A DNA stretch of 64,000 bases from Proluteimonas luteida (GTDB lineage Bacteria; Pseudomonadota; Gammaproteobacteria; Xanthomonadales; Xanthomonadaceae): the NCBI RefSeq assembly GCF_021191695.1, contig NZ_JAIWPT010000004.1, positions 62,001-126,000 on the forward strand, in the 5' to 3' direction. Positions 34,760 to 43,768 of this stretch are shown in pieces. The notes under the pieces are model-generated. The model ran no database searches, was not told the DNA's origin, and saw only the letters and a list, made by a program, of their open reading frames with translations. Made by a program: the position numbers and the translations under genes. Every line of letters begins with the position of its first letter. The stretch's first letter is position 1.

Positions 34760-37084
34760 TCAGAAGTTGTAGCGCACCGACAGCGACCAGTCGCGCGGAC
34801 GCCCGTAATAGGCGGTCTGGATGTTGCCCACGCTGGAGAACTCCTGGCCCTCGACCTTGTAGACCTCGTCGGTCAGGTTGCGCACGCCGGCGCGCACCTG
34901 CCACACGTACTGCGGGGAATCCCACACCCCGTACAGGCCGACCAGGGTGTAGGCCTCCTGCATCAGGTTGGCGCGGTTGTCGACCGACAGCCAGGTGTCG
35001 CCGCGGTAGGAGACGTCGCCGCCGAGGGTCAGCGTGCCGCTGCCGCCCAGCGAGAACGCGTGCTGCAGGGCGACGCGCGCGGTCCAGTCCGGGGTGAACG
35101 GCACGTGCGCGTGCAGCGTGGGATCGTAGGCGGGGTTGGTCGGGTCGGTGGTGCGCAGGTCGGCGAAGTTCTTGTAGCTGGCATCGGTCCAGCCGAGCTG
35201 CGCGCTCAGCGTGGTGGCCTCGCCGAGTCGCGCCACGCCCTCGAACTCGAAGCCGTTGATCTCCATCTCCGCGGCGTTGAGCACCGGGAAGGAGAACGTC
35301 GGCGTCGGCGAATCCGGGTTCAGCACTTCGGACACGCGCGCCTGGAAGTCCTCGTAGCGGCTGTGGAATGCGGCGACGTTGGCCTGCAGGCGTCCGTCGC
35401 CCGAACGGAACTTGAAGCCGGCCTCGTAGGTCCAGACGAACTCGGGATCGAACACTGCGGCTGTGGTCTCCAGCGCGCTGTTGGCGCGGCCGTTGAAGCC
35501 GCCCGACTTGAAGCCGCGGTTGGCCGAGACGTAGCCGCTGGCGTTGTCGCTGAAGGCCTTGTGCAGGCTCAGCGACGGCGTCACCGCGCTCCACTTCTGC
35601 CGCGCCTGGAATGCGACCGTCTCGTTCAGCGCGGAGAACGGCAGGACCCCGAGGAACAGCGAGTCCGATGCCCAGAACGTGCTGGTCGAGCGGGTGTAGT
35701 CCTTCTCGTCCTCGGTGTAGCGCACGCCGGCCGCCAGCGTCCAGGTCGGCGCGAACTCCCAGTTGAAATGGGCGAACGCCGCCTTGCTGGTGGTCGACAG
35801 GTCGTCGTCGATGGTGCGCAGGAAGTCGACCGGCACGCCGCCGTTGAAGAACAGGTCGTCGGCATAGGCTTCCTGGTACGACGGCACGTCCTCCTTCATG
35901 TAGTACAGGCCGAAGGTCGCCTGCAGGTTGCCGCCGTTGTCGTACTGCAGCTGCAGCTCCTGGCTGACCTGGTCCTGGTCCAGCGCCACCAGCACGTCGC
36001 CGAGTTCGAACTCGGACGCGTCGATGTCGATGAAGGAATGGGTCTGCAGCTCGCGGTAGGCGCTGATGCTCTTCAGCAGCAGGTTGTCATTGAGGTCCCA
36101 TTCGGCGGTCAGCGACACGCCGGTGTGGGTCATCTCCTGCCCCTGCCACGGCGCGAACGAGGTCCGTGTCCTGAAATCGTACTCGCCGGTCGGCGCCGGC
36201 TTCAGCACCACCGGGCCGAGTACCAGGTCGGTCGCGACCAGCGGCGCGGTCGGGTGGCCGACCGTCAGGTCGGTGTCCTGGCGGGTGCGGTCGACCGACA
36301 GCGTGGCGCGGAAGCCGTCGGTCGGCTGGAACACCGCCTTGGCGCGGAACGCGAAGGTGTCGTCGCCATTGAAGGTGCGGCGGCTGTCGGGGTCGTGGAT
36401 GAAGCCGTCGTTGTCGATCTTGGCCAGCGCCACGCTGGCGGCGACCGTCTCGCCCAGCTGCCCGCCGACGTAGAACCGGCCCTCGCGCCGGCCGTCGCCG
36501 CCGACGACGAGCTCGGCCGCGCCGCCGGTGTCGTCGAACGGATTCCTGGTCGCGATCTTGATCGCGCCGCCGGTCGAGTTCTTGCCGTACAGCGTGCCCT
36601 GTGGGCCGCGCAGCACCTCGACCTGCTGCACGTCGAACAGCGAGAACAGCGCGCCGTTGATGCGCGCGTAGTAGACGTCGTCGACGTACATGCCCACGCC
36701 CGGATCGAAGGTCTGCAGCGCGTCCGGCTGGCCGATGCCGCGGATGAACACGTTGACGCTGTTGGCCGAGCCGCGGCCCTGCACGATGTTCATGTTCGGC
36801 ACCGCGCCCTGCAGTCCGTCGATGTTGCTGGCCTGCAGGTCCTTGAGCTGTTCCTCGCCGAAGGCGCTGACCGCGACCGGCACGTCCTGGATCGACTCGC
36901 TGCGGCGGCGCGCGGTGACGGTGATCGCGTCGAGCGTGGTCGCGCGACCGTCCTCGACGACCTCGACTTCCACCTCGGTGACGTCGATCTCAGTCCGTGC
37001 CTGCTGGGCGTGGACTGCGGGCACCGACAGCCCGAGGCCGATCGCCAGGCTGAGTGCGGAGTGCCGGATGGTGTTGCGCTTCAT
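34760..37084 (-). CDS. TonB-dependent outer membrane receptor
   Basis: A 774-residue receptor. After a signal peptide (MKRNTIRHSALSLAIGLGLSVPAVHAQ) comes a TonB-box-like acidic stretch (TTLDAITVTARRRSESIQDVPVAV). The plug domain (VNVFIRGIGQ, VEVLRGPQGTLYGKNSTGGAI) and a 22-strand barrel follow, ending in aromatic WSLSVRYNF, the outer-membrane insertion signal. The ATG at 37084 has GGGAGGGG just upstream. The gene points away from the RiPP export cassette, sharing a 217-base upstream region with it. It belongs to the broad catecholate/nutrient class of xanthomonad receptors. The ligand is unknown, and a link to the neighbouring peptide is only a possibility. Confidence 0.92.
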   Translation of the reverse strand: MKRNTIRHSALSLAIGLGLSVPAVHAQQARTEIDVTEVEVEVVEDGRATTLDAITVTARRRSESIQDVPVAVSAFGEEQLKDLQASNIDGLQGAVPNMNIVQGRGSANSVNVFIRGIGQPDALQTFDPGVGMYVDDVYYARINGALFSLFDVQQVEVLRGPQGTLYGKNSTGGAIKIATRNPFDDTGGAAELVVGGDGRREGRFYVGGQLGETVAASVALAKIDNDGFIHDPDSRRTFNGDDTFAFRAKAVFQPTDGFRATLSVDRTRQDTDLTVGHPTAPLVATDLVLGPVVLKPAPTGEYDFRTRTSFAPWQGQEMTHTGVSLTAEWDLNDNLLLKSISAYRELQTHSFIDIDASEFELGDVLVALDQDQVSQELQLQYDNGGNLQATFGLYYMKEDVPSYQEAYADDLFFNGGVPVDFLRTIDDDLSTTSKAAFAHFNWEFAPTWTLAAGVRYTEDEKDYTRSTSTFWASDSLFLGVLPFSALNETVAFQARQKWSAVTPSLSLHKAFSDNASGYVSANRGFKSGGFNGRANSALETTAAVFDPEFVWTYEAGFKFRSGDGRLQANVAAFHSRYEDFQARVSEVLNPDSPTPTFSFPVLNAAEMEINGFEFEGVARLGEATTLSAQLGWTDASYKNFADLRTTDPTNPAYDPTLHAHVPFTPDWTARVALQHAFSLGGSGTLTLGGDVSYRGDTWLSVDNRANLMQEAYTLVGLYGVWDSPQYVWQVRAGVRNLTDEVYKVEGQEFSSVGNIQTAYYGRPRDWSLSVRYNF

Positions 37085-37167
37085 GTGTCCCCTCCCACGG
37101 GTCGCAAGTCGTGCGGCACGCTGCCGCCCGACGCCAAGACTAGGGAGTGGCCGGACGCGGCGGCATC

Positions 37168-37189
37168 GTACCTTCGGACAATGGCCGCG
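37168..37189. repeat. 22-bp direct repeat, left copy
   Basis: This 22-base segment begins GTACCTTCGGACAATGG and occurs again without mismatch at 42284-42305. The two copies enclose exactly the adaptor, exporter, precursor and ligase genes. This copy lies between the divergent receptor gene and the adaptor gene. Confidence 0.85.
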
Positions 37190-37301
37190 CATGCCCCCGG
37201 GACGCGCCGCAACGCGACCGCGCGCACGGATCGGACGCGATATCGACACACCGTCGACCGCGCCGGCCAATAATGCCGGTCGCCCCGTCCTCCCTGGCCC
37301 C

Positions 37302-38579
37302 ATGTCCGACGAACTCTTCCGGCGCGAAGTCCTGGACGCCCGCAAGGCCGAATCGCTGGGGCGCGTGCACCTGTCGACCACCCCGATGGCATGGCCGGCA
37401 GCGATCGTCGCCGCCGCGGCGGTGCTCGCGCTGGTCGCGATCCTGGCGTTCGGCAGCTATACGCCCAAGGCGACCGTCCACGGCCAGCTGGTGCCCGCCG
37501 GCGGGCTGCTGGACGTGGTGTCGGGCAGCGCGGGCCGGGTCTCGCACCGCTTCGTCGAGGAAGGGGAAGCGGTTGCCGCGGACCAGCCCTTGTTCGAGAT
37601 CTCGCCCGACGTCGAACCCGCCGGCGACGGCGGCGCGGTCGGCGCCCGCGTCGCCGAGGCCCTCGAACGCGAGCGCGCGGCGCTGCACGAGGAGCTGGCG
37701 GCGCTGGAACCCGCGCGCGCCGAGGAAGAGGCCGCGCTGCGCCGGGAAATCGCCGCGCAGCAGCGCCGGCTGGCGTCGACCACCGCGGAACTGGAGCTGC
37801 GCGAGCGCCAGGCCGCATCCGCGGCCGGCACGCTCGACCGCATCCGCCCGCTGCTCGACGAGAAGATCATCAGCGACGTGCAGCTGCAACAGTACGAGAA
37901 CGAGGCACTGAACGCCCGCGCGCAGCGCGAGAGCGTCGCGCGGGAACGCCTGGATGCCGGGACCGCGCTCGCCGACGCGCGGCGGCGGCTGGCATCGCTG
38001 CCGCGCGAGATCGCATCACGCCGCAATGCGCTGGGCACCGCGTTGTCGGAGGTCGAACAATCGATCGCCCGCAACGAGGCCGCGCGCGGCACGCTGTGGC
38101 GCGCACCCGCCGCCGGCACGGTCTCGGGCCTCGCGCGCGAGGCCGGACAGTCCGTGGCGGCCGGCCAGCGGCTCGCGTCGATCGCGCCGGCCGGCGCGCC
38201 GCTGCAGGCCGAGCTCTGGGCACCGTCGCAGGCGGTCGGCGGCCTGCGCGTCGGCGACCGGGTCGCGATGCGCTACGACAGCTTTCCGCATGCGGTGTTC
38301 GGCCAGCCCGGCGGCCGGATCGCGGGGATCGCGGAAAGCCCGCTTGGCGTGGACGAACAGCGCGCGCGCGGCTTCCCGCAGGCGACGGCGCCCGCCTACA
38401 GGATCCTCGTCGTACTCGACAGCCAGCGGATCGACGACGGCCGCGGCCCCCGGGCGCTGCGCGCGGGCATGTCGCTGGAGGCGGACCTGCTGCTCGAGCG
38501 GCGCCGGCTCCATCGCTTCCTGTTCGCCCCGCGGCGGGCGACGCCCGCCGCTGCCAATGTCGATGGGGACGGGCGATGA
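37302..38579 (+). CDS. HlyD-family membrane fusion protein of the RiPP exporter
   Basis: A 425-residue periplasmic adaptor that links an inner membrane ABC exporter to an outer membrane channel. It has a short cytoplasmic N-terminus (MSDELFRREVLDARKAESLGRVHL), one membrane helix (about 30-52), a lipoyl-type half motif (GQLVPAGGLLDVVSGSAGRVSHRFVEEGEAV) and a long coiled coil rich in E, R and A (about 125-260). The second lipoyl half (LWRAPAAGTVSGLAREAGQSVAAGQRLASIAP) and a beta-barrel end follow. This resembles bacteriocin-secretion adaptors of the CvaA type. The stop overlaps the exporter start (ATGA at 38576-38579), so the two are translationally coupled. No outer membrane TolC-like partner is in the window. 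Confidence 0.9.
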   Translation: MSDELFRREVLDARKAESLGRVHLSTTPMAWPAAIVAAAAVLALVAILAFGSYTPKATVHGQLVPAGGLLDVVSGSAGRVSHRFVEEGEAVAADQPLFEISPDVEPAGDGGAVGARVAEALERERAALHEELAALEPARAEEEAALRREIAAQQRRLASTTAELELRERQAASAAGTLDRIRPLLDEKIISDVQLQQYENEALNARAQRESVARERLDAGTALADARRRLASLPREIASRRNALGTALSEVEQSIARNEAARGTLWRAPAAGTVSGLAREAGQSVAAGQRLASIAPAGAPLQAELWAPSQAVGGLRVGDRVAMRYDSFPHAVFGQPGGRIAGIAESPLGVDEQRARGFPQATAPAYRILVVLDSQRIDDGRGPRALRAGMSLEADLLLERRRLHRFLFAPRRATPAAANVDGDGR

Positions 38580-40675
38580 TCGGCTCGGGACACCGCCGGC
38601 TGCCGGTGATCCAGCAGAACGAGATCGCCGAATGCGGACTCGCGTGCCTGGCGATGGTGGCCGCATGGCACGGACACGATGTCGACCTGGCCGGCCTGCG
38701 CCGGCGCTTCCCGGTCTCGACCCGCGGCGCCACGCTCTCGCGCCTGATGTCGGTCGCCGCCGCCCTCGGCTTCGACACCCGGCCGCTGCGGGCCGAGGTC
38801 GAGGACCTGCGCCAGCTGCAGTTGCCCTGCATCCTGCACTGGGACCTCAACCACTTCGTCGTGCTCGCGCGCATGGGCCGGGACACGGTGGAGATCCACG
38901 ATCCGGCGCGCGGGGCGGTCACGATGTCGCTCGCGGAATTCGGGCGCCATTTCACCGGAATCGCGCTCGAGCTCGCACCCGCGCCCGACTTCACGCCGAT
39001 CCGCGCGCGCGAACGCCTGCCGCTGCGCCGGCTGTTCGGTCAGGTCCGCGGCCTGGGCCGCGCCGCGACCCAGGTGCTGCTGCTGGCATTGGCGCTCGAA
39101 GCCTTCACCCTGGTGCTGCCGTTGGCCCTGCAGTGGGTCATCGACCTGGTACTGGTCTCCGGCGACCTGCAGCTGCTGACGCTGATCGGTATCGGTTTCC
39201 TCACCGTCGTGGTGTTCCAGGCGGCGATCGCGGTGATGCGTGGCTGGGTGGTGGCCGAGCTCGGCGCCTCGCTGAGCGCGCAGTGGGTCGGCAACCTGTT
39301 CGGTCACCTGCTGCGGCTGCCGCTCGACTATTTCGAGAAACGCAGCGTCGGCGGGGTGCTGTCGCGTTTCATCTCGGTGCAGAGCATCCAGCAGACCCTG
39401 ACCGGCAGCTTCATCGAGGCCCTGCTGGACGGACTGACGGTCGGCCTGGTCCTGATCCTGCTCGCGTTCTACAGCCTGCCGCTGACGCTGCTGGTGCTCG
39501 CCGCGTTCGCGCTGTATGCATTGCTGCGCTGGGCGACCTACCGACGCCTGCAGGCGCTCAAGGAAGCGCAGCTGGTCCACGTGGGCCGGCAGCAGGGCCA
39601 GATGATCGAATCGATCAGCGGCATGCAGACGATCAAGCTCGCCGGTCGCGAGGCCGAGCGCCGGGCGAAAATGACCAACGCCACGATCGAGGTCGCCAAC
39701 CGCGAGGCCGCGATCAACCGGATCACCGCCACGTTCGCGGCGCTGTCGAAGCTGATCTTCGGCGTGCAGCGCATCCTGGTGATCTGGATCGGGGCCGGGA
39801 TGGTGCTTGCAGGCAGCTTCACCGCCGGCATGCTCGTGGTCTTCGTCGCGTACGCGGAACTGTTCGCGACCCGCGCCGGCAGCCTGGTCGACAAGCTGAT
39901 CGAGTTCCGGCTGCTGGGCATGCACGGCGAGCGCATCGCCGATATCGCGCTCGCGACCGCCGAGCCGCACGTCCACGGCGGCTATGGCGGCCCGCCGCCG
40001 AAGCCGCGAATCGAGCTCGACGGCGTCGGCTACCGCTACGCCGAGGACGAGCCCTGGATCCTGCGCGACTGCAGCCTCGTCATCGAGGCCGGCGAGAACG
40101 TCGCGATCACCGGCCCCTCCGGGTGCGGCAAGACCACGCTGGCCAAGGTCCTGCTCGGGCTGCTGCCGCCCACGGCCGGGCGCGTGCGCATCGACGGCAT
40201 CGACATCCATCACCTGGGCCTGGCCCGCTACCGCACCCTGTTCGGCGCGGTGATGCAGGACGACGTGCTGTTCGCCGGATCGATCGCCGACAACATCACG
40301 TTCTTCGATCCCGACGCGACGCCGGCGCGGATCGAGCGCGCGGCGCAGGCGGCGTGCATCCACGAGGACATCGTGACGATGCCGATGGGCTACGAGACGC
40401 TGGTCGGCGACATGGGCGCCTCGCTGTCGGGCGGACAGCGGCAGCGCGTGCTGCTGGCGCGCGCGCTCTACCGCGAACCTGCGATCCTGCTGCTCGACGA
40501 GGCCACGAGCCATCTCGATGTCGCCCGCGAACGCGCGATCAATGCCGCGATCGCATCCCTGCCCATCACCCGCATCGTCATCGCGCACCGGCCGGAAACC
40601 ATCCGCAGCGCGGACCGGGTCATCGCCCTGCGCGACGGCCGTCCCGTTCAGGCTGATGAGCCCCGGCAAACCTGA
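38576..40675 (+). CDS. Peptidase-containing ABC transporter (C39 peptidase, double-glycine leader processing)
   Basis: A 699-residue PCAT-type exporter that removes a double-glycine leader and pumps the mature peptide out. The N-terminal C39 peptidase has its complete catalytic set: Q14 and C20 (QNEIAECGLACLAMVA), H93 (DLNHFVVL) and D109 (VEIHDPARG). Six membrane helices span about residues 160-430. The ATPase has Walker A GPSGCGKTT, signature LSGGQRQR, Walker B ILLLDEATSHLD and the H-loop IVIAHRPETI. It is coupled to the adaptor gene by ATGA and followed after 130 bases by the small precursor gene, whose leader ends in GG. The fit of enzyme and substrate in one locus makes the function secure. 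Confidence 0.95.
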   Translation: MIGSGHRRLPVIQQNEIAECGLACLAMVAAWHGHDVDLAGLRRRFPVSTRGATLSRLMSVAAALGFDTRPLRAEVEDLRQLQLPCILHWDLNHFVVLARMGRDTVEIHDPARGAVTMSLAEFGRHFTGIALELAPAPDFTPIRARERLPLRRLFGQVRGLGRAATQVLLLALALEAFTLVLPLALQWVIDLVLVSGDLQLLTLIGIGFLTVVVFQAAIAVMRGWVVAELGASLSAQWVGNLFGHLLRLPLDYFEKRSVGGVLSRFISVQSIQQTLTGSFIEALLDGLTVGLVLILLAFYSLPLTLLVLAAFALYALLRWATYRRLQALKEAQLVHVGRQQGQMIESISGMQTIKLAGREAERRAKMTNATIEVANREAAINRITATFAALSKLIFGVQRILVIWIGAGMVLAGSFTAGMLVVFVAYAELFATRAGSLVDKLIEFRLLGMHGERIADIALATAEPHVHGGYGGPPPKPRIELDGVGYRYAEDEPWILRDCSLVIEAGENVAITGPSGCGKTTLAKVLLGLLPPTAGRVRIDGIDIHHLGLARYRTLFGAVMQDDVLFAGSIADNITFFDPDATPARIERAAQAACIHEDIVTMPMGYETLVGDMGASLSGGQRQRVLLARALYREPAILLLDEATSHLDVARERAINAAIASLPITRIVIAHRPETIRSADRVIALRDGRPVQADEPRQT

Positions 40676-40805
40676 TCGCGCCGGGATCGCGAAAACACGA
40701 CACCGGTAACAGACATCTCGCGCGCGATCACCAAGGATCGATGCCGGTCGCCCCCGGAACGACCCGTATCCCGACTTCCGGTCCCTGACGAAGATGGAGA
40801 CATCC

Positions 40806-40985
40806 ATGAAGCAGCATCAGGAACACGTGGAACAGAACACAACCGAAGCCCGTCCCTTCGCCCGCGTCGCGGCGCGCGAACTGACCGAACGCGAGATCGA
40901 GGCGATCTCCGGCGGCCGCCCCCACACCACCAATGCCACCGGCCCCAACGGCGACGATCCCTCCGATCCCGGCACCTACCTCTGA
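40806..40985 (+). CDS. Graspetide-type RiPP precursor peptide with double-glycine leader
   Basis: A 59-residue peptide. The leader (1-37) carries RPFARVAARELT, similar to the PFFARFLE recognition helix of microviridin leaders. It ends in a canonical double-glycine site with L26 (-12), T27 (-11), E30 (-8), I31 (-7), I34 (-4) and G36-G37. The predicted core (38-59) starts RPHTTNATGPNGDDPSDP. Its threonines T41, T42 and T45 and aspartates D50, D51 and D54 have the same TTxxT/DDxxD spacing and are well placed for side-chain ester links made by the adjacent ATP-grasp ligase. The ATG at 40806 has GGAG 6 bases upstream; an ATG at 40794 overlaps that ribosome site and is unlikely. Confidence 0.87.
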   Translation: MKQHQEHVEQNTTEARPFARVAARELTEREIEAISGGRPHTTNATGPNGDDPSDPGTYL

Positions 40986-41078
40986 GGCAAGGCGTCGGTG
41001 CCGCCGGTGCACGCGGCGTCCCTGCCAACGCAGGCCGCAGCCGGACGGCACGACGCTCCCGATCGCGACAGCCATACC

Positions 41079-41101
41079 GGCGCCCCGCCCCGCGGGGCGC
41101 C
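41079..41101 (+). other. GC-rich hairpin between precursor and ligase genes
   Basis: A perfect 10-bp stem GGCGCCCCGC/GCGGGGCGCC with a 3-base loop lies 94 bases after the precursor stop and 40 bases before the ligase start. Only TTC follows, so full termination is unlikely. Such a structure could cause partial termination or protect the short precursor mRNA, giving more precursor than enzyme. Confidence 0.6.
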
Positions 41102-41140
41102 TTCGCGTTGCGCGCGCCACTCATCACCGGTCGATCGACG

Positions 41141-42256
41141 ATGCCCGCACCCCGGCCCCGCCCGCTGATCCTCTCCTGTCTCGCGCACGACCTGCATGCC
41201 CACGCCGCATGCTGGGGGCTGCGCCGCAACGGTTGCGACCCCCTGTGGATCTCCTCTTGGGCCGATCCCGCGCTCGAGCCGGTGTCGCTGCACTGCGATG
41301 CGCTCGACGGCGTCCGTGCCTGCGGTACCGCGCATGTACCGAGCGTGTGGTACCGGCGCCCGCGTCTTCCGGAGGCATTCGCTGGTGCCAACGCGGCGGA
41401 CCGGCCGTTCCTGCGCAACGAGTGGGGACGCTTCATCAACAACCTGCAGGCCAGTCCCGACGCCTGGGACGACGTCCTGTGGGTCAACCGCCCCGAGGCG
41501 GCGATCGCGGCGGAGAACAAGCTCACCCAGCTGCGCGCCGCACGCGCCGTGGGCCTGGCGTTCCCCGCCACGCTGATGTCGGCCGATCCCGTACGGATCC
41601 GCGAATTCGCCGCAAGCCACCGCCGCATCGTCTACAAGCCCTTCCAGACCCATTCCTGGCAGGACAGCGACAGCGGCCGCATCTTCAGCACCTATGCGCG
41701 CGTGGTCGAGGCGGACATGCTCGACGACGATGCCAGCCTGCGCCTGTGCCCGGGCATCTTTCAGGCGCTGGTCGACAAAACCGCCGACCTGCGCGTGATC
41801 CTGGTCGGCGAGCACGCCTACGCCGTGCGATTGGCCACGTCCGGCGACGCCACCTTCATCGACTGGCGCGCCGGCACGCTGGACCAGGCCCTGTCCGCGT
41901 CGCCGGCGACGCTCCCGGGGGCAACGCTCGACCGCCTGCGCGCGCTGATGCGCCAGCTCGGCCTGGTGAGCGGCAGCATCGACCTGGTGGTCGATGCGGA
42001 CGGCGACGTGCATTTCCTCGAGATCAACCAGGCCGGCCAGTTCCTGTTCCTCGAGGACGCGTTGCCCGGCCTGCCGCTGCTGCAGACCATGTGCGCGCTG
42101 CTGGCGAGCGGACGCAGCGACTGCGAGCCCTCGGCGATTGCCGGCGTTTCCTATGCGGCGTACCTGGCAAGCGAGGAGCATGCCCGCTGGTGGGAGACGG
42201 TGCGCGACGGCATCCGTGCCGCCGACGGCACGATTCCCGGGGTCAGCGTCGAATAG
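41141..42256 (+). CDS. ATP-grasp graspetide synthetase (MvdD/PsnB-like ester ligase)
   Basis: A 371-residue ATP-grasp enzyme, related to the ligases that join Thr/Ser hydroxyls to Asp/Glu side chains in microviridin and other graspetides. Seen: an N-terminal pre-ATP-grasp part; NRPEAAIAAENKLTQLRAA (116-134), the usual NxP...NK-Q-x-A entry; ATP-binding K166 in IVYKPFQTHSW; DLRVILVGEHAYAV (216-228); and the metal-binding DVHFLEINQAGQFLFLE (289-305), very like the FLEINPxGQW motif of MvdC/MvdD. GLPL follows it, also typical. The ATG at 41141 is preferred to an in-frame TTG at 41108. It is the last gene of the cassette. No second ligase or acetyltransferase is nearby. Confidence 0.88.
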   Translation: MPAPRPRPLILSCLAHDLHAHAACWGLRRNGCDPLWISSWADPALEPVSLHCDALDGVRACGTAHVPSVWYRRPRLPEAFAGANAADRPFLRNEWGRFINNLQASPDAWDDVLWVNRPEAAIAAENKLTQLRAARAVGLAFPATLMSADPVRIREFAASHRRIVYKPFQTHSWQDSDSGRIFSTYARVVEADMLDDDASLRLCPGIFQALVDKTADLRVILVGEHAYAVRLATSGDATFIDWRAGTLDQALSASPATLPGATLDRLRALMRQLGLVSGSIDLVVDADGDVHFLEINQAGQFLFLEDALPGLPLLQTMCALLASGRSDCEPSAIAGVSYAAYLASEEHARWWETVRDGIRAADGTIPGVSVE

Positions 42257-42283
42257 CACCCGTCCCGTTTCGCGGGGCCACCT

Positions 42284-42305
42284 GTACCTTCGGACAATGG
42301 CCGCG
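42284..42305. repeat. 22-bp direct repeat, right copy
   Basis: Identical over 22 bases to 37168-37189. It lies 27 bases after the ligase stop and 65 bases ahead of the gntP-type gene. Both copies contain GGACAATGG, which could also act as a -10-like element for the downstream plus-strand gene. Confidence 0.85.
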
Positions 42306-42370
42306 GACGCGCGCCGCCGCCGACACTGCCCGCCGTCTGGCCCGCGGGCCGCCTGTCGTGTGGGTCTGCC

Positions 42371-43768
42371 ATGGATTTCGTGATCGTACTGGGCGCGCTG
42401 TGTTTCCTGATGTACGTCGCCTACCGCGGCCACAGCGTGATCCTGTTCGCGCCGGTCGCGGCGATGGGCGCGGTGCTGCTGACCGACCCGAGCCTGGTCG
42501 CGCCGATGTTCACCGGCCTGTTCATGGACAAGATGGTCGGGTTCCTGAAGCTGTATTTCCCGGTGTTCCTGCTCGGCGCGGTGTTCGGCAAGGTCATCGA
42601 GCTGTCGGGTTTCTCCAAGTCGATCGTCGCCGCGACCATCCGGCTGTTCGGGCCGAAGCAGGCGATGCTGTCGATCGTCACCGTGTGCGCGCTGCTGACC
42701 TACGGCGGCGTGTCGCTGTTCGTCGTGGTGTTCGCCGTGTATCCGTTCGCGGCCGAGCTGTTCCGCCAGAGCGACATCCCCAAGCGCCTGATCCCGGGCA
42801 CGATCGCGCTCGGCGCCTTCACCTTCACGATGATGGCGCTGCCCGGCACGCCGCAGATCCAGAACATCATCCCGACCGCGTTCTTCGGCACCGATTCCTG
42901 GGCCGCGCCGGTGCTGGGCACGGTCGGCTCGGTGCTGATCTTCGCCGGCGGCATGGCCTACCTGGAGTGGCGCCGGCGCAGCGCGTCCGCCGCCAGCGAG
43001 GGCTACGGCAGCGAGCTGCGCAACGAGCCGGAGCCGTTCGCCGGCGACCGCCTCGCGCATCCGCTGGTCGCACTGCTGCCGCTGGTGCTGGTCGGCGTGT
43101 CCAACAAGCTGTTCACGGTACTGATCCCGCAGCTGTACGGCAGCAGCCACAGCTTCGTGCCGGCGGTGATGGGCGAGGCCGCGCCGGTGGTGCAGGAGGT
43201 CTCGCGGGTGTCGGCGATCTGGGCCGTCCAGGGCGCGCTGCTGGTCGGCATCCTCGCGGTCATCGCACTGGCCTGGCGGCCGGTCACGCGCAAGTTCGCA
43301 GAGGGCACGAAGACCGCGATCGGCGGCGCGCTGCTGGCGTCGATGAACACCGCGTCCGAGTACGGCTTCGGCGCGGTCATCGCCGCCCTGCCCGGCTTCC
43401 TGCTGGTCGCCAACGGCCTCAACAGCATCCCCGACCCGCTGGTCAACGAGGCGGTCACCGTGACCGCGCTGGCCGGCATCACCGGCTCGGCCTCGGGCGG
43501 CATGGGCATCGCGCTGGCGGCGATGGCCGAGAGCTTCATCGCCAACGCGCAGGCCGCGGGCATCCCCATGGACGTGCTGCACCGGGTCGCGGCGATGGCC
43601 TCCGGCGGCATGGACACCCTGCCGCACAACGGCGCGGTGATCACCCTGCTCGCCGTCACCGGCCTGACCCACCGCCAGTCCTACGGCGACATCTTCGCGA
43701 TCACGATCATCAGCACCGCCGCGGTGTTCGCGGTGATCGGGCTGTACTACCTGACGGGCTGGGTCTGA
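42371..43768 (+). CDS. GntP-family permease
   Basis: A 465-residue inner membrane symporter with 12 or more helices. It has the family-typical LFVVVFAVYPFAAELFRQSDIPKRLIPGTIALGAFTFTMMALPGTPQIQNIIP region and a late conserved segment GSASGGMGIALAAMAESF with ASGGMDTLPHNGAVITLLAV. GntP carriers import gluconate or related hydroxy acids, including D-3-hydroxybutyrate, with protons; the exact substrate is not clear here, and no sugar-acid kinase gene is nearby. The ATG at 42371 begins directly at the first helix. It follows the right 22-bp repeat and converges on the Fe-S carrier gene with a hairpin between them. Confidence 0.88.
   Translation: MDFVIVLGALCFLMYVAYRGHSVILFAPVAAMGAVLLTDPSLVAPMFTGLFMDKMVGFLKLYFPVFLLGAVFGKVIELSGFSKSIVAATIRLFGPKQAMLSIVTVCALLTYGGVSLFVVVFAVYPFAAELFRQSDIPKRLIPGTIALGAFTFTMMALPGTPQIQNIIPTAFFGTDSWAAPVLGTVGSVLIFAGGMAYLEWRRRSASAASEGYGSELRNEPEPFAGDRLAHPLVALLPLVLVGVSNKLFTVLIPQLYGSSHSFVPAVMGEAAPVVQEVSRVSAIWAVQGALLVGILAVIALAWRPVTRKFAEGTKTAIGGALLASMNTASEYGFGAVIAALPGFLLVANGLNSIPDPLVNEAVTVTALAGITGSASGGMGIALAAMAESFIANAQAAGIPMDVLHRVAAMASGGMDTLPHNGAVITLLAVTGLTHRQSYGDIFAITIISTAAVFAVIGLYYLTGWV

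Follow-up and report, generated by a model that had tools for sequence, protein, structure and literature searches.

A four-gene graspetide-type cassette, very probably of the thatisin group, in Proluteimonas luteida

The window analysed here, a stretch of 64,000 nucleotides from Proluteimonas luteida (contig NZ_JAIWPT010000004.1, positions 62,001 to 126,000; counted with Luteimonas in the genome comparisons below), carries a four-gene peptide cassette that is highly likely to encode a graspetide-type pathway. Asp side chains of a small precursor are predicted to be phosphorylated and attacked by Thr hydroxyls, which would close likely two ester rings, probably interlocked, before a C39 peptidase would cut off the leader and a 22-residue product would be secreted. 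The observed basis of this reading is the gene order, the family membership of ligase, adaptor and exporter, the C39 residues, the double-glycine leader and the conserved Thr and Asp residues. Very probably the cassette belongs to the thatisin group (graspetide group 16), an assignment that draws on a presumed match to the thatisin core and on published traits that are not specific to that group.

Results

The cassette and the parts of its precursor are laid out as follows.

37302..38579, + strand: HlyD-type periplasmic adaptor of the exporter (Pfam HlyD_3 7.9e-14, HlyD_D23 5.1e-9; NCBIfam type_I_hlyD 99 bits, under the cut-off of 209)
38576..40675, + strand: peptidase C39-ABC transporter of PCAT/NHLM type (Pfam Peptidase_C39 5.3e-36, ABC_membrane, ABC_tran; NHLM_micro_ABC1 492 bits, under the cut-off of 853)
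40806..40985, + strand: precursor peptide, 59 amino acids (GGAG before ATG 40806; alignment; at least 137 homologues)
40806..40916, + strand: leader peptide ending in ARELTEREIEAISGG (RPx[AG]R and double-glycine leader pattern in homologues)
40917..40982, + strand: core peptide RPHTTNATGPNGDDPSDPGTYL, 22 residues (T42, T45, D50, D51 and D54 invariant in a 26-row alignment)
41141..42256, + strand: ATP-grasp ligase of graspetide-synthetase type, 371 amino acids (NCBIfam, PDB sequence matches and fold matches; ATG at 41141, stop ending at 42256)

All four genes lie on the + strand, adjacent and with intact frames, and the C39-ABC start overlaps the HlyD stop in an ATGA. The order HlyD, C39-ABC, precursor, ligase is repeated at 19 of the 23 loci of close relatives, which extend to other genera of the family (at L056 and L057, both among the 19, the HlyD match is confined to its C-terminal part), so the cassette is more than a chance assembly, and the coordinates and order given in a preliminary description of this DNA hold. 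Two of the 23 loci, L065 and L067, are cut by contig ends; L062 and L063 have precursor and ligase with no HlyD or C39-ABC match in the 8-9 kb upstream stretch, and export there would be in trans or lost. That description had also called the cassette a complete system, which is right for the four genes, all present, and not for an outer-membrane channel gene, none of which is among the four.

The exporter has Q14, C20, H93 and D109, which align with the Gln, Cys, His and Asp of 6mpz, a solved PCAT protease domain (E-value 1e-23), and the catalytic set is thus intact, as had been claimed. With these residues, ABC membrane and ATPase domains and a double-glycine substrate, it is by sequence a PCAT-type exporter and the cassette's own, again as described earlier, with leader cleavage predicted. 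Its best NCBIfam match is NHLM_micro_ABC1 despite that model's cut-off. It shares with known PCAT/NHLM exporters (6mpz; 4ry2) the C39 domain, the ABC half-transporter and the aligned catalytic residues, and differs in scoring under the NHLM_micro_ABC1 cut-off and in being partnered by its own HlyD adaptor. In the exporter tree the window's row groups with Luteimonas and g20 rows, six rows in all counting its own, with support of 100/98.

The ligase scored 192 bits against the NCBIfam model GRASP_SAV_5884 (TIGR04187; E-value 1.2e-56), 140 bits against MvdC (6.9e-41), 122 bits against MvdD (3e-35) and 69 bits against grasp-with-spasm, which contrasts with only 20.7 and 20.3 bits for the RimK and glutathione synthase models. 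By its sequence matches it is closer to the MvdC, MvdD and SAV_5884 maturases than to RimK or glutathione synthase. The preliminary description had termed it MvdD/PsnB-like and had named a search against graspetide synthetase profiles as a check, a grouping with RimK- or glutathione-type enzymes only being one outcome that would speak against it; the graspetide models, all under their cut-offs, scored far above RimK, the ligase did not group with RimK- or glutathione-type enzymes only, and the assignment was supported. A PDB sequence search at E-value ≤ 1 returned six sequences, MdnB, AMdnB, PruB, MdnC, CdnC and PsnB (entries 5ig8, 7m4s, 9bou, 5ig9, 7mgv and 7drm; four of the six names come from structure titles in the fold search), PsnB at just 1e-6. 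An AlphaFold2 model built from 52 sequences had a mean predicted local distance difference test score of 93, and among the 50 fold matches listed, ranks 1-32 were graspetide synthetases of the PDB set, RimK appearing from rank 33. The ligase contains the FLEINQAGQF motif, and D281, E294, N296, R243, K127 and K166 are invariant in 52 ligases, the first three being presumably the usual ATP-grasp metal ligands.

The window's genome has a single match to the TIGR04187 model, that is, one graspetide-type ligase. Across 297 genomes of the family, 55 match the ligase at E-value ≤ 1e-3; 24 of them, the window's included, reach at least 342 bits and the rest at most 175. A related ligase (E-value ≤ 1e-60) is present in nine of 52 Luteimonas genomes, again counting the window's, and eight of these nine score at least 477 bits. 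The branches of the ligase tree did not settle the window's place. Three Luteimonas genomes (G301, G302, G312) have three related ligases each, one close (about 480 bits) and two distant (about 310-320 bits). Ligase relatives 37-41% identical occur in Frateuria and Oleiagrimonas (L041, L043) beside small peptides with an RPFGR leader, no double glycine and the core TSGS..ND.PD (P0227-P0229); there is no cassette exporter match nearby, and these peptides have three database matches only, one of them identical to that of L041. A ligase and precursor labelled Pseudomonas sp. CGJS7 (P0024, P0117), their contigs equal in length (17,655), look Lysobacter-like, and the organism label may be wrong.

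The 59-residue reading of the precursor is favoured over an alternative 63-residue reading from 40794 because the ATG at 40806 has a GGAG ahead of it and is the start used in relatives. Pfam gave no match for the precursor; a database search, covering the 7986 best candidates, yielded at least 137 homologues at E-value ≤ 1e-3, 120 of which were listed, the window's own among them. The RPx[AG]R leader motif is present in all 26 aligned precursors and all 120 listed homologues, and 25 of the aligned and 114 of the listed peptides show the double-glycine leader pattern, which bears out the double-glycine precursor of 59 residues proposed earlier. A graspetide leader motif, Phhx(1,2)h, has been described (Makarova, 2022, PMC8939145); PFARV matches it in the window, as do 22 of the 26 aligned and 101 of the 120 listed peptides.

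Within the 26-row alignment, RP..R..AREL...E.....GG and T-x-A-T-G-x-x-G-D-D-P-x-D-P are invariant, the latter comprising T42, A44, T45, G46, G49, D50, D51, P52, D54 and P55, and T-x-[AQ]-T-G-x-x-G-D-D-P-x-D is kept in 117 of the 120 listed homologues, mostly as THATGPNGDDP. A stricter pattern is fitted by 101 of the listed homologues; in these the position preceding the first conserved Thr holds Thr in 56, His in 33 and another residue in 12, and the second position of THAT holds His in 85 and Asn in 11. Because the former position varies, two conserved donors are left, and the core family, judged by alignment, conserves two hydroxyl donors (Thr) and three acceptors (Asp). The TNAT variant of the window occurs in 13 of the 120 listed homologues, the window included, and all 13 keep both Thr and all three Asp. 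Synonymous codons were found at every conserved core position except D50 in 23 distinct core DNAs; since the places were chosen by the core pattern, only this synonymous variation is informative. The window core has no Glu and no Lys, so a Lys lactam is impossible.

Four cassettes (L045, L047, L048, L037) have two different precursor genes each. On another contig of the window's genome (G000, C11:153184-153288; L150:1468-1656), a 62-residue reading has a double-glycine leader like that of the precursor (ARELNDAEINAVAGG) followed by another tail; it overlaps an open reading frame of 357 amino acids and matches the precursor alignment at an E-value of 1e-5.

Genomic context

The cassette sits between a TonB-receptor gene and a putative permease gene, with two copies of a perfect direct repeat around it.

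34760 to 37084, - strand: TonB receptor, flanking the cassette on the left
37168..37189, + strand: left copy of the 22-base-pair perfect direct repeat GTACCTTCGGACAATGGCCGCG, 112 base pairs before HlyD
42284..42305, + strand: right copy of the same repeat, 65 base pairs before the putative permease gene at 42371
42371-43768: putative permease gene, beginning after the cassette (multi-pass look; no Pfam or NCBIfam family)

The permease gene, which we label gntP for its resemblance, has no Pfam or NCBIfam family even at E-value ≤ 10; 28 other Luteimonas genomes hold full-length matches to it of 80-91% identity. In 13 cassette-free Luteimonas loci the TonB-receptor and permease genes adjoin divergently, the receptor being 67-82% identical to the window's in 11 and 33% in two. 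Both were rejected as cassette members, since in these loci they adjoin with no cassette between them and neither accompanies the cassette in other genera.

With a 17-base pattern and up to 3 mismatches, 0.04 chance matches of the repeat would be expected in the window, as against the two exact copies found. The repeat is single-copy beside the permease gene in the 13 cassette-free loci, and it occurs once only, just before that gene, at matching sites of 16 other Luteimonas loci. Its 16-base core, with up to 1 mismatch, is present in 40 of 52 Luteimonas genomes, and two exact copies are seen only in the window's. No copy precedes hlyD in the other carrier loci searched (L032-L075, with the 17-base pattern and up to 3 mismatches), so the repeat is not supported as the cassette's own promoter motif; the only two matches in these loci are immediately ahead of the permease gene, in L037 and L046. 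A consensus scan limited to sigma-70-like promoters found none of that type in 36900-42500.

In each of the seven other close Luteimonas carriers (G255, G144, G070, G306, G301, G302, G312) and likewise in both g20 carriers (G065, G160), nine of nine in all (loci L046, L048, L050, L137, L138, L139, L140, L045, L047), the ligase is directly followed by pnp, and in the window's genome pnp is on another contig than the cassette. No pnp was found nearby in six checked loci of two other genera (g16, g14). Of the seven other Luteimonas carriers, four have the permease gene upstream of the cassette and in the same orientation; the genomes of the remaining three have no permease match. Compared with the nine pnp-linked carriers, only the window has its cassette apart from pnp, between the receptor and permease genes and next to a duplicated element. 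An insertion with target duplication and a tandem duplication followed by loss both fit the origin of the repeat pair. It is possible, if doubtful, that the cassette left an ancestral site before pnp, settled by the permease gene with duplication of the 22-base-pair element and is now co-controlled with the TonB receptor and the permease, a promoter capture by a cassette for a ribosomally synthesized and post-translationally modified peptide.

Discussion

Thatisin and iso-thatisin, reportedly described by Ramesh and colleagues in 2021 from Lysobacter antibioticus, are said to make up graspetide group 16 and to hold two interlocking macrolactones. The THATGPNGDDP-type core of the precursor family is presumably the core of thatisin and iso-thatisin, and the name fits THAT. 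The window shares with thatisin a THAT-type core found in Lysobacter relatives (presumably that of thatisin too) and an NHLM-type exporter; it differs in TNAT in place of THAT, in other core flanks (RPH..., ...GTYL) and in its host genus, Luteimonas, and its rings are predicted. Group 16 is described as comprising thatisin and iso-thatisin and as co-occurring with an NHLM-type transporter (Carter, 2026, PMC13097080), and the window's exporter has NHLM_micro_ABC1 as its best match, under the cut-off. Thatisin is likewise described as having lactone rings and no lactam (PMC9826346), and the window's core, which has no Lys, is predicted to form esters. A search of literature full text (text only; figures and most subscription journals were outside it) did not find GPNGDDP or HATGPNG.

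The microviridin core motif is TxKxPSD, and plesiocin has TTxxxxEE repeats. Microviridin membership was rejected on the one ligase-model match in the whole genome and the core without Lys: the cassette resembles the microviridin systems (MvdC/MvdD, MdnB/MdnC) in its homologous ATP-grasp ligase, the P-F-x-R motif of the leader and the double-glycine site, but it has one ligase in place of two, no Lys or lactam and no TxKxPSD. Plesiocin (group 2) was rejected because the core has no Glu and hence no TTxxxxEE repeats. Like plesiocin (PsnB) and fuscimiditide (ThfB), the cassette would have a single ligase forming Thr-Asp/Glu esters; it differs in the missing TTxxxxEE, in having no methyltransferase among the four genes and in the PsnB match of only 1e-6. 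The preliminary description was right about the class and about a core unlike those of microviridin and plesiocin (no Lys, no Glu), but its claim of novelty was set too high, given a core family of at least 137 homologues that is presumably the one of thatisin, group 16. Pre-fuscimiditide is also described as having two Thr-Asp esters, with the rings of fuscimiditide nested (PMC12291112). Two further Lysobacter cases bear comparison: precursor cluster 859, placed in branch 3 with its own core pattern (Makarova et al., 2022, PMC8939145), which, compared by description only, is like the cassette in its Lysobacter setting, graspetide ATP-grasp branch, own core pattern and leader similarity, and Gra-8 (group 19), a different Lysobacter graspetide made heterologously (PMC9576775).

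Several points weigh against a graspetide of the thatisin group. The core match to thatisin is a presumptive one. The ligase passed no curated NCBIfam graspetide cut-off (192 of 350, 140 of 425, 122 of 475 and 69 of 230 bits), these being the cut-offs of the SAV_5884, MvdC, MvdD and grasp-with-spasm subfamilies and not of the whole class, and Pfam gave it only sub-threshold ATP-grasp matches (GSH-S_ATP 0.07, YheCD 0.08). The TIGR04187 model has matches under its cut-off in seven of the 14 control genomes as well, so a match to it alone is not class-specific. Three of the 120 listed homologues depart from the core pattern, one with GEDPGH (D50 to Glu, D54 to His), one with SNAT...GEDP (T42 to Ser, D50 to Glu) and one with PPPHATG (no first Thr), and, since three Asp are conserved for two Thr, their pairing is not readable from the sequence. 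Seven other graspetide groups also co-occur with NHLM-type exporters (PMC13097080), and plesiocin and thuringinin are likewise without a lactam (PMC9826346); because other groups share both traits, their support for group 16 is unspecific.

In the graspetide-type pathway that we favour, the leader (RPFARVAAREL) would recruit the ligase, which would phosphorylate Asp side chains of the core with ATP for attack by the Thr hydroxyls. Two esters would lower the mass by 36 Da, from a computed [M+H]+ of 2283.027 for the linear core to 2247.006, and may adopt a crossed topology, both their number and the topology being modelled on the structure reported for thatisin. The C39 domain would then cut after Gly37, the ABC/HlyD pair would export the product, and the cell's own outer-membrane channel would probably serve as the exit. 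Phosphorylation of acceptor side chains followed by hydroxyl attack is described as the general graspetide mechanism (PMC13097080). By analogy with the class, protease inhibition would be the default role, the graspetides characterised by the time of one survey being protease inhibitors (PMC8939145).

A different set of bonds, either three esters that include T41 or a topology other than that of thatisin, could be imagined for a TNAT variant: the window core has T41, T42 and T45 together with D50, D51 and D54, so three pairs are possible, and TNAT is found in just 13 of the 120 listed homologues. Position 41, however, is His in 33 of 101 and Asn, Arg, Tyr or Lys in nine more, which means that a third ester does not characterise the family; the Asn of TNAT sits between donor positions and not at one, and the TNAT homologues all retain both Thr and the three Asp; we consider this variant improbable. 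The ligase might instead be of RimK type, adding amino acids or using another substrate, with the peptide an ordinary secreted bacteriocin processed by the C39 exporter. The ATP-grasp fold is common to RimK, which appears from fold rank 33 and has an NCBIfam score of 20.7 bits, and the graspetide model TIGR04187 finds matches, below its cut-off, in half of the control genomes, but three graspetide models exceed RimK by 100-170 bits, the leader has the RPFAR motif expected for ligase recognition, and in L062 and L063 precursor and ligase stay paired with no exporter match nearby. A RimK-type identity was rejected on the scores and fold ranks, and this alternative is barely conceivable.

The cassette could also be a relic, its genes intact yet silent or useless in this strain after a move. 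Its patchy occurrence in nine of 52 Luteimonas genomes, its site, which differs from that of the seven other close carriers of the genus, and the scan without a sigma-70-like promoter in 36900-42500, covering that type alone, would agree with this; the four intact frames and the retained catalytic, donor and acceptor residues argue the other way, and a relic is very unlikely.

The general picture of graspetides is unchanged by this cassette. It very probably extends a known graspetide group to another Luteimonas genome, with TNAT as a natural variant of the core, and the family alignment points to two Thr and three Asp as the residues apparently required by a ring system that is expected to have two rings. 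When occupied and empty sites are compared, a cassette of this kind is seen to shift between loci.

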